A DNA stretch of 64,000 nt from Bacillus sp. AFS055030 (GTDB lineage Bacteria; Bacillota; Bacilli; Bacillales; Bacillaceae_G): positions 1-64,000 of the forward strand of contig NZ_NUGT01000019.1 of NCBI RefSeq assembly GCF_002574545.1. Reading direction: 5' to 3'. Position 1 is the first letter of the stretch, and every line of letters begins with the position of its first letter. The notes below the pieces were generated by a model. That model made no database searches and was not told the DNA's origin. It saw only the letters and a list, made by a program, of their open reading frames with translations. Shown here in pieces: positions 75-5,756 of the stretch. Made by a program: the position numbers and the translations under genes.

Positions 75-572
75 TTATCGATTATCAATCTTCTCAGGAT
101 ATAAATCATGGTTCATCATACGATGTTCAGCCATTTTTTCGTATTTTGTACCTGGGCGACCATAGTTGCAATATGGGTCAATTGAAATTCCACCACGTGG
201 AGTGAATTTTCCCCAAACTTCAATATAACGAGGATCCATTAATTTAATTAGATCATCCATAATGATATTCATGCAATCTTCATGGAAATCACCATGATTA
301 CGGAAGCTAAAGAAGTATAGTTTTAATGATTTACTTTCAACCATTTTCTTCTCAGGAATATAGCTTATATAAATTGTCGCAAAATCAGGTTGACCAGTTT
401 TTGGACAAAGTGAAGTAAATTCAGGGAAATTAAATTTTACGAAATAATCACGATCTGGGTGAGTATTATCAAATGTTTCTAATATTCCTGGATCGTACTC
501 AAATAAATATTTAGTGTTGTTACTGCCAAGTAATGATACATCTTCTAGTGAACCTTTTGATCTTCCTACCAT
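75..572 (-). CDS. queF: NADPH-dependent 7-cyano-7-deazaguanine reductase
   Basis: Reduces preQ0 to preQ1, the last free-base step before insertion into tRNA for queuosine. The 165-residue protein matches the short unimodular (YkvM) form of QueF. The catalytic Cys is at about residue 56 in [11 protein letters not shown], the motif whose Cys forms the thioimide with the nitrile. It is the last gene of queC-queD-queE-queF, 5 bp after the queE stop, so it should be expressed through the preQ1 riboswitch upstream of queC. Identity is clear from motif, length and context. Confidence 0.97.
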
Positions 573-577
573 TCTGG

Positions 578-1294
578 TTAAACTCCTCTCTTATTTCCCC
601 AAACAAATGCATGTAATTGAGGTAAAACTTTTACATTTTTAAAGACGTTTGATTTCATTGCTTCATCTATAAGCCATTCGTAACGATTTAACATGTATTG
701 TAATAAAGTGCCATCATCCGCATTTAGCCAACTATTTCCGACTTGTAAAAAGAACGGAACATGTGGGAATTTTTGATGAACAGATTCTGCATAAGCTAAA
801 TCTTTTCCATCAAAAATAACAACTTTTAAGCAAAACTTTGGGTGGTTTTCTAAACTTTGAATAATGCTTCCTAGCATTTCAAAATCAGTATCCATGCCAC
901 TGCTAGGCGGTTTAGGCGATAAAGTAACTTCATCTATAGAAGGTAACCAAGATTGCCACTTACTACCTTGAGTTTCAAGAGCCAAAGTCATATTCTTTCC
1001 TTTTAAAAACTCAACAACAGGGCCTAAAGATGGAAGTAAGGCAGGGTTTCCACCAGAAATCGTAATATGAGAGAAAGTATCGCCACCTAAACTGACTAAA
1101 TTCTCCCAAACTTCTTCTGCGGTCATCCATTTAATATTCTCTTTTTCACTACCATCCCAGGTGAATGAAGAATCGCACCAACTACATGAGTAATCACAGC
1201 CAGCTGTACGAATAAACATCGTTTTTTGACCGATTGCCATACCTTCACCTTGTACAGTAGGTCCGAATATTTCAAGTACAGGAATTTTATTCAT
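578..1294 (-). CDS. queE: 7-carboxy-7-deazaguanine synthase (radical SAM)
   Basis: Radical-SAM enzyme that converts 6-carboxytetrahydropterin to 7-carboxy-7-deazaguanine. The cluster-binding motif is C33-x3-C37-x2-C40 in [13 protein letters not shown]. It follows the N-terminal GPTVQGEG segment typical of the family, and ISGGNPAL forms the SAM-contact region. At 238 residues it has normal length. The start overlaps the queD stop by 8 bp, which implies translational coupling within the que operon. Confidence 0.97.
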
Positions 1295-1763
1295 TGATCA
1301 TCCACTCCCTACGAGCTTCTGCATAGCTTGTAGGCGTTTCAAATAAACGAACAAACTCAACTCGAATATCTTGTACAGGATTTGTTTCATCTTTAAGCGC
1401 ATTTTCCATTTGCTCAAAAATCCAAACAACCATGTTCTCCGCTGTTGTATTCATCGGAGGTAGCATCTCATTTAAATAACGGTGATCTAAATAGATTTCG
1501 ATTTTTTCTTTCCAGATCTGCTTAATATCTCCAAAGTCTATTACTAAGCCGATCTCATCAACAAAGCCACTGATTCCAAAAATAACTTTATATGTGTGGC
1601 CGTGTAAATTCTTACATTTACCTTCATAGCAGTGTAAGTGATGTGCAGCATCAAACGTAAATTCTTTATTAACAAGAACTCGTTTATGGTGATATTTTAA
1701 GTCTTCTTTTTTTATATGCTCATCGATCTTATGAAGTCTTTCTACAATGCGAAAATCAAACAT
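1287..1763 (-). CDS. queD: 6-carboxy-5,6,7,8-tetrahydropterin synthase
   Basis: Converts dihydroneopterin triphosphate to 6-carboxytetrahydropterin, the second step of 7-deazaguanine synthesis. It belongs to the PTPS family: the zinc and active-site residues are visible in [20 protein letters not shown] (residues 37-56), with the zinc histidines and the catalytic Cys of the CxxxHGH arrangement. The DHRYLNE segment lies in the second half. At 158 residues it is close to the Bacillus form. It overlaps queC and queE by 8 bp each. Confidence 0.96.
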
Positions 1764-2421
1764 GCTTTGGGGCTCCCTTCGATTGTAGGTAACGATCTAA
1801 ACCAGCCTGACGAAGCTCACATGCCGGACATTCTCCACAACCATCTGAAATGATGCCGTTATAGCAAGTTAATGTTTTATTTTTAACGTATTCAAATGCA
1901 CCCAATTCATCAGCTAATTTCCATGTGTCAGCTTTATCAATCCACATAAGTGGAGTATGAATAACAAATGGATAATCCATTGATAGATTAAGAGTTACAT
2001 TTAATGATTTAACAAAGATATCTCGGCAGTCAGGATATCCGCTAAAGTCAGTCTCACAAACACCAGTAATAATGTGCTTTGCTCCTTTTTGTTTAGCAAG
2101 TACTGCTGCAAAAGATAGGAATAATAAGTTACGTCCATCGACGAATGTAGAAGGAAGTTCGCCTTCTTCGTGAGTTATATCAATATCTGATCTTGTTAAA
2201 GCATTTGGTGCAAGCTGATTTAACAAGGACATATCAAGGATATGGTGAGGAATATTTAATTCCTTACAAATATCTGCAGCTACATCCAATTCAAGTTTAT
2301 GGCGCTGATTGTAATTAAATGTAACAGCTTCAACCTCACCAAATTGTTGCATAGCCCAGAATAAACAAGTAGTACTGTCTTGGCCACCGCTAAATACAAC
2401 GATTGCTTTTTCATTTTTCAT
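1756..2421 (-). CDS. queC: 7-cyano-7-deazaguanine (preQ0) synthase
   Basis: ATP-dependent conversion of 7-carboxy-7-deazaguanine to preQ0. The PP-loop SGGQDS is at residues 11-16 and a C-terminal zinc site at [10 protein letters not shown]. The open frame extends 24 codons further upstream, but the ATG at 2421 is chosen because AAAGGAGAG precedes it at proper spacing and the family begins [13 protein letters not shown]. The result is 221 residues, the normal length. It is the first gene of the operon, and the riboswitch and terminator lie in its leader. Confidence 0.97.
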
Positions 2422-2470
2422 ATTTCTTCTCTCCTTTACACGATTAAAAAGAAGAGGGCATCCCGAATAA

Positions 2471-2504
2471 CAAAAATAAAAACAATACGACAAATATTGT
2501 TTTT
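2471..2504 (-). terminator. Riboswitch-controlled terminator in queC leader
   Basis: On the minus strand a perfect 10-bp A/U-rich stem (arms 2495-2504 and 2478-2487) with a 7-nt loop is followed by a U-rich run. It lies directly downstream of the preQ1 aptamer and upstream of the queC SD, the layout of a transcription-OFF switch. The stem has few G/C pairs, so its strength is uncertain. Confidence 0.75.
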
Positions 2505-3529: not shown

Positions 3530-3608
3530 GTACACATGTTTGCACACAAGAATACATTTTGTAAACAATTGTACACGATAAAGTATACATGTACACAAAA
3601 ACGTAAAC
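3530..3608. repeat. Iteron array 1 (GTATAC-like), putative parC
   Basis: Seven degenerate GTATAC-type hexamers start at 3530, 3542, 3561, 3571, 3583, 3591 and 3603 (GTACAC, GCACAC, GTAAAC, GTACAC, GTATAC, GTACAC, GTAAAC). Steps are 12, 19, 10, 12, 8 and 12 bp, many close to one helical turn. The array lies upstream of the ParM/ParR-like genes, where a ribbon-helix-helix adaptor would bind a centromere. Confidence 0.7.
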
Positions 3609-3667
3609 TTTTATTTTTAGGTAGGAAATAGTTGTTCTGAAAATAATTTTAGGATGAAAAAGTCAAT

Positions 3668-3775
3668 GTATACACTTTTGTATACAAGCACACGTTTTTG
3701 TAAACATTTGTATACACTTTTGTACACATGTATACGTTATTGTATACGAGTTTATGTGTTTACAATATTGTATAC
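3668..3775. repeat. Iteron array 2 (GTATAC-like), putative parC
   Basis: Nine hexamers start at 3668, 3680, 3700, 3710, 3722, 3730, 3742, 3758 and 3770, five of them before the last two perfect GTATAC or one base off. Steps are 12, 20, 10, 12, 8, 12, 16 and 12 bp. The first seven reproduce the spacing of array 1 at an offset of 138-139 bp, so the two arrays look like an ancient tandem duplication. It ends about 130 bp before the actin-like gene. Confidence 0.75.
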
Positions 3776-3904
3776 AAGATGACATTTCAGTTACATTTTA
3801 ATAATAGTTCAGTGGTGGACATTGACCAGATGGCTAAAGTTAGATAATCTAATATCAGAATTATCTATAAATATGTAAACCTATTAACGAAAGGGATGAT
3901 TTAG

Positions 3905-5107
3905 GTGGTAAATGCTCGTATAGCTGCTATTGATGTAGGAAACGATTCACTCAAAGGAATTTTTGGGAAGATGGAATCTGAAATTAATATTCCTAATATT
4001 ATTGCAAGGGATACAGAAGATCGTCCAATCATTGGGATAGAAGAATTAGACAACCAAGATCCAGTTGATGGAATACATATTCGCGTTCACTCTCCTACAT
4101 TAAAAGAGAATAATACTGTTTATCGTGTAGGGAATTTGGCAACAAAAAGTGGTAATGCAACCGAATTAGATCCTGGGAGTAATAAGTCTGAAGAGGATCA
4201 AACACTTATTATGTTATTTGCAGCATTAGCGTTAGATGCTGCTAGAGAAGAGAATAAACAAATTGTAAAAAACTCTAATAATGTAATTGAGGCAACATAT
4301 GTATTGGGAACGGGTCTTCCGCTTAGAGAAGTAAAGGAAGGAAAGGACGTAGGTTATCGTTCACGATTACTTGGCTCAGTTCACCAAGTAGAGTTTTTAG
4401 TAACACCAAGACATCAAGGTTTAAAAGTTAATATTAAGTTTGAAGATGTTAAAGTTTATCCTGAAGGATTTGCAGCTTTTATTAACTTAGTTATGGACAA
4501 TCATTTAAACATAATTAATAAAGACCTTATAGATAAAAAAATCCTTATTCAAGACATCGGAGGGTTATCAACTGATATTGCGGTCATTAGGAATCGAAAG
4601 GTAGATGACGATAAAGCTCAAGGTTTTAATCTTGGTGTGGCAGAATCCCTTGAAGCTATTCGTGAAGAGATTCGTTCAAGACATGGAGTTGAACTTGATA
4701 GCCGAAGAGATGTTGTAGAGATCATTACGAAGAAAAATGATCGAAATCATATAATGGTTAAAGGTAGTCGGACAAGCGTTCATGATATTGTAGACCGTAT
4801 TCTGTTAGAACTAGCAAAAAAACAATATCGCCATTTGAGAAATATTTGGCAGAAGAACTCTCAAACTGAAATATGCTATTTCATTGGTGGAGGGTCGTTG
4901 ATCTTAAAAGAATATCTTAAAACACTTAATAATAACCTAGATGGTTATAATATCGATTTCTTTGAGGACGAGAAGGAAAGTATCTGGATGATGGCGAATG
5001 CTTATTATAAGCTAATCGCTGATTTTGAATTAAAAAGAGCTAGAGAAGTTAGAAGAGAAGCACAACATACTGGAAAAGAAGAACAAAAAATGTCTAAAGC
5101 AAAATAA
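3905..5107 (+). CDS. ParM/Alp-family actin-like protein
   Basis: A 400-residue actin-fold ATPase of the bacterial plasmid-segregation type (ParM/StbA, Alp7A-like). Visible motifs are the phosphate-1 loop AAIDVGNDS (residues 7-15), the phosphate-2 loop DIGGLSTDIAV (around 223) and the adenosine loop YFIGGGSLI (around 330). The C-terminal 30 residues are charged and probably disordered. The start is GTG, with AAAGGGATGA 9 nt upstream; no nearer ATG is in frame. A ParR-like gene follows 9 bp after the stop, and iteron arrays precede it. Likely role: filament that moves or positions DNA. What a chromosomal copy does is not known from the sequence. Confidence 0.85.
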   Translation: MVNARIAAIDVGNDSLKGIFGKMESEINIPNIIARDTEDRPIIGIEELDNQDPVDGIHIRVHSPTLKENNTVYRVGNLATKSGNATELDPGSNKSEEDQTLIMLFAALALDAAREENKQIVKNSNNVIEATYVLGTGLPLREVKEGKDVGYRSRLLGSVHQVEFLVTPRHQGLKVNIKFEDVKVYPEGFAAFINLVMDNHLNIINKDLIDKKILIQDIGGLSTDIAVIRNRKVDDDKAQGFNLGVAESLEAIREEIRSRHGVELDSRRDVVEIITKKNDRNHIMVKGSRTSVHDIVDRILLELAKKQYRHLRNIWQKNSQTEICYFIGGGSLILKEYLKTLNNNLDGYNIDFFEDEKESIWMMANAYYKLIADFELKRAREVRREAQHTGKEEQKMSKAK

Positions 5108-5116
5108 GGTGATTCC

Positions 5117-5707
5117 ATGAAGGAAAAAGAATTGACGAGGGGACAACCTATTACATTTCGTATCCCTTCTGATACGCCTGATCAGATTATTAAACATTTG
5201 CAGCAGCTTAAACAAAGCGAAAGGCGAAACTTTTCAAGTAAGATTGCTGAGTACGTAATAAGCGGAGTGAATGACTCATTATCAAAGCAAAGGCAAACAA
5301 TAACGATTCCACTTCCGAAAAGCCTAGATAAAGCTCAAAGAGATTGGTTAAAACATGAACATTCTGAGGCTTTATTAGGTAGTATTGTGTATCAATTATT
5401 ATCCAACCCGATTCGAACTGCTTCTCTTATTACATCGCTAAATAGTAATAGTTTAGCAATTGAAGAGGCGTTATATCTTCAAGAAGAAATGAATGAATTA
5501 GAGCCAGAATTGGAACCTGTTCAATCAAAACGTTCAAGCGAACCGAATTTAGATAAGACCGGAAGAAAGTCCGATCTTGATGATGATTTAGATAACTTTA
5601 ATTGGGATGCTGCAAGCAAAAGAGAAATCTCTGCAGCTAAAGAAGAAATTGAAGAGGAAGATATGGATAGTCTACTCGGAGATTTTCTTGCACAAATGAA
5701 TAAGTAA
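5117..5707 (+). CDS. ParR-like adaptor protein, partner of ParM-like actin
   Basis: A 196-residue protein translated from ATG with AAGGTGAT just upstream, in an operon with the actin-like gene. Residues 10-65 (TFRIPSDTPDQIIKHLQQLK...SSKIAEYVISGV) read like a ribbon-helix-helix DNA-binding domain: a short strand, then two helices. The next 60 residues are helical. From about 130 the chain is acidic and low-complexity, ending in a short helix (MDSLLGDFLAQMNK), as in ParR-type adaptors whose C-terminal tail contacts the filament. Sequence similarity to named ParR proteins is not obvious; the assignment is by position and architecture. Confidence 0.6.
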   Translation: MKEKELTRGQPITFRIPSDTPDQIIKHLQQLKQSERRNFSSKIAEYVISGVNDSLSKQRQTITIPLPKSLDKAQRDWLKHEHSEALLGSIVYQLLSNPIRTASLITSLNSNSLAIEEALYLQEEMNELEPELEPVQSKRSSEPNLDKTGRKSDLDDDLDNFNWDAASKREISAAKEEIEEEDMDSLLGDFLAQMNK

Positions 5708-5718
5708 AAACTAAAAAT

Positions 5719-5751
5719 GGGACCGAATACTAAATACATCGGTCCCGTTTT
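5719..5751. terminator. Bidirectional terminator after parR-like gene
   Basis: GGGACCGA (5719-5726) pairs with TCGGTCCC (5739-5746) and is followed by GTTTTT. The opposite strand also has a T-run, so it can end both the partition operon and the convergent CBS gene. Confidence 0.85.
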
Positions 5752-5756
5752 TCTAA

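Follow-up and report, generated by a model that had tools for sequence, protein, structure and literature searches.

Actin-based partition is known from plasmids, and Alp7A-Alp7R of pLS20 is a related type II partition system. Whether bacteria use actin-based partition for their own chromosome is, to our knowledge, an open question. A 2025 paper introduced chromosomal ParMs (Dh-cParM1, Cb-cParM, Bt-cParM1 and Bt-cParM2); there Bt-cParM is described as conserved in Bacillus, filaments are shown for two systems, and it is asked whether chromosomal ParM systems serve the chromosome (PMC12270681). A search of its text for oriC, dnaA and origin met these terms only in the references and as general words, with no analysis of location (PMC12270681). 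Here we describe a ParM-ParR-parC cassette from Bacillus sp. AFS055030, found in a window of 64,000 nucleotides that is part of a 110,944-bp contig (genome of 4.39 Mb in 91 contigs). Its most telling feature, a constant closeness to the replication origin, lies beyond the reach of any one window and emerged from comparison with its relatives.

Make-up of the cassette

An initial annotation, made from the sequence of the window alone, had proposed a complete type II-like (ParM-ParR-parC) cassette among chromosomal genes, with intact genes for an actin-like ATPase and an adaptor, a Shine-Dalgarno sequence, duplicated upstream repeats and a shared terminator, and this description holds: both open reading frames are present, purine-rich stretches stand at ribosome-binding distance, 15 palindromic hexamers lie upstream in two blocks, a strong hairpin follows parR, and no rep gene was seen beside the cassette. 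The features are as follows.

3530-3608, strand not applicable: parC block 1, six GTNNAC-type hexamers at 3530, 3561, 3571, 3583, 3591 and 3603
3668-3775, strand not applicable: parC block 2, nine GTNNAC-type hexamers (3668 to 3770) with a spacing of mostly 8, 10 or 12 bp
3822-3850, plus strand: putative sigma-A-type promoter TTGACC-N17-TAATCT between parC and parM, read from the sequence
3905-5107, plus strand: parM, actin-like ATPase of the Alp7A/ParM group, 400 aa, GTG start
5117-5707, plus strand: parR, adaptor, 196 aa
about 5713-5752, plus strand: intrinsic terminator separating the convergent parR and CBS-domain genes
75-2493, minus strand: queF-queE-queD-queC, a genus-specific neighbour outside the system, given for context only (queE was named from the sequence by eye)

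Assignment of the actin to the ParM/Alp families, which the initial annotation had left to a search, is well founded: ParM matches Alp7A_like_C (2.2e-36), ALP_N (1.4e-11) and MreB-like_C above the Pfam cut-offs, the ParM_N match falling below its own, and the closest fold matches of its AlphaFold model (mean pLDDT 68, moderate confidence) are solved ParMs; the matches include plasmid ParMs, Alp7A and the chromosomal Dh-cParM1 (8x1i). Dh-cParM1 resembles the window protein in fold only, at 16% identity, and a profile search of PDB sequences for orthology with a named cParM returned nothing at E <= 0.001. Within the cassette, conservation is highest in ParM (mean column identity 79% vs 60% for ParR), which fits an active filament motor.

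ParR was aligned from 46 of the 81 sequences at hand. Its N-terminal ~110 aa are conserved and are followed by a variable linker and a tail in which an acidic DDDLDNFDW motif and a C-terminal LLGDFLAQMNK motif are strongly conserved. The N-terminal part, in which two strand-helix-helix-like stretches can be made out by eye, is probably DNA-binding. The helices of the ParR model (pLDDT 66) show an RHH-like pattern; structure and family searches gave no significant fold, Pfam or PDB match, and no convincing family entry was found in Pfam or PHROGs, against which 46 members were run, or in NCBIfam, against which the window protein was run. Since neither family nor fold searches gave a convincing match, we put the RHH fold forward as a proposal; a new ParR family model could be built from these sequences. 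Plasmid adaptors encoded downstream of related parM genes gave tblastn matches in 22 plasmid records, all confined to the N-terminal half and none covering 80% of the protein. In plasmid ParR proteins the tail contacts ParM, and by analogy the tail of the present ParR should do the same.

The 15 hexamers of the window are of the form GTANAC or GTNTAC, and the 600 bp upstream of its parM hold 16 hexamers vs 1.9 in dinucleotide shuffles. Over 80 named relatives plus the window the mean is 11.6 vs 1.2 in such shuffles, and the pooled hexamers of these 81 upstream regions are spaced mostly by 8 and 12 bp (a 20-bp unit, with peaks at 8, 12 and 20 bp), a regularity less marked in the window itself. 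All 45 genomes examined for position carry 5-18 GTNNAC-type hexamers in the 600 bp before parM (median 10, about 1 in base shuffles). When a three-hexamer pattern was searched over 45 whole genomes (the window's own and the 44 described below), 109 of its 113 matches fell within 2 kb of parM (a reversed control pattern gave 47 matches), the strict pattern being present near parM in just 38 of the 45; the array is essentially unique on each chromosome. The five plasmid-type relatives analysed, four on plasmids and one a chromosomal copy (L222), have 0-4 such hexamers each and are devoid of this array. In the four genomes of family f29 (G298, with loci L165 and L221, G337, G356 and G193) array-pattern matches occur ~1.1 kb before parM; G298, G337 and G356, not G193, have matches close to parM as well, so that a second array block is present.

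The array bears on the idea that the locus is a repurposed cytoskeleton with a role in cell shape or another function unconnected with DNA. In its favour, FcmB of cyanobacteria, an actin of plasmid-partition descent, is reported to control cell morphology (PMC12645912), and ParM has a weak match to the NCBIfam FcmB equivalog (3.3e-6), although its 26.2 bits fall far below the cut-off of 300. However, a dense array of shared motif precedes every parM examined and the locus lies near oriC, both of which count against a non-DNA role, since such a role needs neither; we consider it very unlikely.

Transcription signals are conserved as well. A TTGAC box occurs within the final 250 nt upstream of parM in 64/81 loci, vs 10/81 after base shuffling, and 62 of these loci also have a suitably spaced second box. 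The TTGACC-N17-TAATCT element of the window was listed neither by a consensus promoter scan nor by a stricter script and is therefore called putative. The conserved promoter-like element looks to be of sigma-A type, and its place between array and parM suggests vegetative transcription. Autoregulation by ParR is known from plasmid systems, and by analogy ParR may perhaps act on the parM promoter here. The hairpin downstream of parR (-19.3 kcal/mol, z -5.7) was equalled by none of 200 shuffles; a simple terminator scan had missed it because its loop has 12 nt and the scan allows 8.

Distribution, constraint and lateral transfer

A scan of one genome per species yielded 426 stretches that encode relatives, and in all of the best 80 of these 426, which were retained, parR directly follows parM. 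The names among the 80 loci include Gottfriedia, Rossellomorea, Priestia, Heyndrickxia, Metabacillus, Siminovitchia, Lederbergia, Ectobacillus, Peribacillus, Cytobacillus, Mesobacillus, Neobacillus, Alkalihalobacillus and Sporosarcina, with the highest identity to the window in Gottfriedia and unclassified Bacillus sp. When 397 genomes of the order were sampled, the window's own included, 224 had a ParM match at E <= 0.001. By manual count 207 of the 397 carry clear orthologues, with best E-values of 6.2e-197 or below and, for those listed, identities of 76-98%; the other 17 matches are weak (9.9e-24 or higher), and the gap in E-values between the two groups is empty. The orthologue is missing from 190 of the 397, one of them of the window's own genus. 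A class-wide sample gave matches at E <= 1e-100 in 15/249 genomes, six of them outside the order, and Alp7A_like_C had no match in 14 named control genomes, Bacillus subtilis among them. Chromosome segregation must hence work without parMR in these 190 genomes and 14 controls.

Plasmid relatives are few and distant: 31 of 72,556 plasmid records contain one, the best ParM identity is 44.5%, no record holds a copy at >= 60% identity, and no match was found among 50,697 phage records. The initial annotation had entertained a domesticated plasmid remnant; a recent one is unlikely given the wide spread, the strong purifying selection described below and the lack of plasmid copies at that identity. 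An ATPase of the ParM/Alp group, an adjacent adaptor related to genes in the parR position and a parC-like array together place the locus among type II-like systems, and its pairing, spread and location on dnaA contigs are those of a ParMR pair conserved on chromosomes, as are the cParMRs. The cassette is no peculiarity of this one genome, and it is unlikely to be the scar of a recent plasmid.

Some individual records deserve mention. One locus (L080), in a record titled Pseudomonas sp. ISL-84, is a Bacillales-type cassette of 80% identity and probably reflects a mislabelled or contaminated assembly. In G076 and G377 the parM match (79-80% identity) contains one in-frame TAA, which may represent decay, a sequencing error or alignment past the gene's own stop. 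The chromosome of G011 carries at 2347500-2353000 a second ParMR (L222) of plasmid type, 36% identical and located beside what we take, by eye, to be a resolvase-like gene; it is probably an integrated plasmid.

Mean pairwise identity is 81.7% for ParM, 84.2% for DnaA, 70.5% for RecF and 69.4% for DnaN. Against five near loci the dN/dS of parM is 0.036-0.065, compared with 0.038-0.042 for punA and 0.089-0.145 for parR, dS exceeding 1 in two of the five comparisons; as judged from these ratios, parM is under strong purifying selection. Distances between ParMs follow those between core proteins (Mantel r 0.67, p 0.001; DnaN vs RecF 0.94), and the core and ParM trees have 17 splits in common vs 0.2 at random. 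In IQ-TREE analyses the core proteins hold 11 of 11 multi-genome families together and ParM holds seven. A single clade for family f46 is rejected for both ParM and ParR, and the three remaining tree conflicts are either weak or do not recur in ParR. The parM of one f46 genome, G178, is 90% identical to those of family f7 and 80% to that of its family mate G063. The 20-kb stretch around it has no other gene in common with the two f7 genomes compared; with G063 it has two or three gene families in common, in other places. Lateral transfer of parMR into G178 is the simplest account. The cassette of G178 still lies left of oriC and points the same way, whether it was newly inserted there or took the place of a resident copy; replacement in place is possible because of the flank families common to G063. 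As this is the single firm case of transfer, it suggests selection on position and does not prove it.

At least one transfer between families, together with a patchy presence, might be taken to indicate a selfish or defensive locus, which would be maintained by lateral transfer and/or act against incoming plasmids bearing related ParMRs. Neither version predicts a constant place near oriC, however; no plasmid record has a copy at the identity threshold given above, the five plasmid-type loci are without the array, and no mobile-looking cluster was seen (by eye, few scanned) among the neighbours that recur in at least 6 of the 80 loci. We regard this as the most improbable of the readings weighed.

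Position relative to oriC

dnaA and parM were both located in 44 genomes (all 42 with an orthologue that were listed at 1-3 contigs, plus one of 5 contigs and one of 6), which comprise 24 single-contig genomes, 24 genus codes and 18 family codes. In all 44 parM lies left of dnaA on the opposite strand, at 36-288 kb (median 92 kb), 20 of the distances crossing contig ends on the assumption of a closed circle; the largest value, 288 kb (G319, whose contig spans 3.5 of 4.1 Mb), depends on this assumption, and leaving out G319 lowers the maximum to 260 kb. In a complete genome from another order parM is ~51 kb from dnaA, on the same side and in the same orientation, with the array upstream. The initial annotation had reckoned with the contig being a plasmid or an integrated plasmid; the sharing of a contig by parM and dnaA in 45 of 45 genomes, and the lack of plasmid copies at >= 60% identity, count against this.

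As a control, queC was found in 36 of the 44 genomes at a median of 1,497 kb from dnaA; only three copies lie 300 kb or less from it, of which two belong to the genus of the window. Adjacency of queC and parM, whose conservation in relatives the initial annotation had proposed to check, is confined to 8 of the 80 loci, each of which bears the name Gottfriedia or unclassified Bacillus sp. (the contig of L033 ends before the queC point); in the other genera queC is located elsewhere. Since queC is mostly far from dnaA, it seems that in Gottfriedia queC moved to parMR rather than parMR to queC. The conserved feature is the distance to the origin, while the queC neighbourhood is genus-specific.

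The constant position may be inherited gene order, and the 45 genomes are not independent: one ancestral entry near oriC would have been followed by gene-order inertia or in-place replacement. This possibility is compatible with the partition function proposed below and denies only selection on position. The left arm does keep some order, with rlmH nearer dnaA than parM in 43/44 genomes, and the splits common to the core and ParM trees and the little flank that G178 shares with G063 point the same way. Yet the gap between parM and rlmH varies from 1.2 to 233 kb, most genera have few neighbours in common, and the G178 cassette, ~90% identical to those of f7, stands in flanks without a gene of the two f7 genomes. 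When 24 representative loci were compared in pairs over 10 kb, most had few gene families in common, exceptions being for example Pseudalkalibacillus-Alkalihalobacillus (15) and the two Peribacillus loci (10). Neighbours turn over while the position of parM stays, and we think it rather unlikely that inheritance alone explains the placement.

In 15 loci (L044-L050, L052, L055, L056, L058, L061, L063, L064 and L076), which carry the names Rossellomorea, Bacillus sp. or B. enclensis, a gas-vesicle (gvp) gene cluster was noticed beside the cassette, ~6-8.5 kb downstream of parM; GvpL/GvpF and Gas_vesicle Pfam matches were checked in L044 only. In two Alkalihalophilus loci, L103 and L108, gvp-related genes lie ~9.5 kb upstream.

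Proposed function and comparison with known systems

Our best explanation, which we hold to be fairly likely, is that Bacillales and some relatives possess in this locus a chromosomal ParM-ParR-parC partition system that acts on the origin region of the host chromosome. From the presence, pairing, array, position and constraint read in the sequences we infer the following steps: ParR would bind DNA by coating the array to form a segrosome, its conserved C-terminal acidic helix would contact ParM, and polymerisation of ParM into ATP-driven filaments would exert force on the chromosome, pushing or holding apart the two newly copied origin regions. Such a centromere is most effective when it replicates early and travels with the origin, and this would account for its siting near oriC. 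ParA, ParB and Noc were found near dnaA (Pfam-checked) in 18 of 20 stretches, the queries coming from G011, which is extra to the 20; the other two stretches are without all three, at least one of them probably for want of range. As these proteins are also present, parMR does not simply replace Soj/Spo0J, and because about half of the order has no orthologue, parMR is dispensable and most likely backs up or refines segregation by ParABS/SMC.

We further propose, tentatively, that about half of the sampled Bacillales run a second, actin-based mitotic apparatus beside ParABS, with a single origin-proximal parC, ParR as kinetochore and ParM as spindle, kept near oriC by selection even when exchanged between families. 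If so, it would have been little noticed because Bacillus subtilis is without parMR.

A domesticated plasmid locus might instead have been reused for tethering or organising the origin region, or for a sporulation-only role in the forespore, without ParM-driven separation of sisters. Plasmid ParMRs of the same group do exist, the array is near oriC as an anchor would be, and many hosts, going by their names, belong to spore-forming genera. On the other hand, the promoter-like element is of sigma-A type and not clearly sporulation-specific, so that the positioning of DNA at sporulation considered in the initial annotation has no positive evidence as an exclusive role, and the higher column identity of ParM than of ParR fits an active motor. 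We judge such reuse clearly unlikely and retain partition of the origin region as the preferred reading. With about half of the sampled order carrying a single centromere-like site near oriC, the question of chromosomal use becomes directly testable; origin proximity predicts that the array should behave as a chromosomal centromere, and the findings suggest that some bacteria may sort their chromosomes with actin filaments.

Among known systems, plasmid ParCMR (type II) and its relatives on Bacillus and Paenibacillus plasmids have in common with the locus the order actin-adaptor, the Alp7A_like_C domain and the ParM fold, the plasmid adaptor matching the N-terminal half of the present ParR. 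The locus differs from them in ParM identity (<= 44.5%), in array motif, in adaptor length (126-149 aa in the five plasmid-type loci vs 196 aa here) and in its chromosomal, origin-proximal location. Like Soj/Spo0J (ParABS) it is an origin-proximal chromosomal partition system; however, motor and site are unrelated and the two coexist. The cParMs are likewise highly conserved chromosomal ParMR pairs, and coexistence with ParAB is noted for them too (PMC12270681); no Bacillus cereus-group record was recognised among the loci analysed here. Salactin of Halobacterium, also an actin homologue of cellular origin, has been implicated in partitioning the chromosome at low ploidy, but it is archaeal, and an adaptor-centromere cassette is not described in the accessible part of the source (PMC10746226). 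In Nostoc, FcmB/FcmC are reported to represent a plasmid partition actin that moved to the chromosome and, rather than segregating DNA, influences cell shape at the membrane (PMC12645912); the present locus, in contrast, has kept a centromere-like array. Literature searches at title and abstract level, preprints aside, gave no description of an origin-proximal chromosomal ParMR. New here are the breadth across Bacillales, the constant origin proximity and the single array, together with a distinct array motif, a long tail on the adaptor and signs that the cassette was once exchanged between families.
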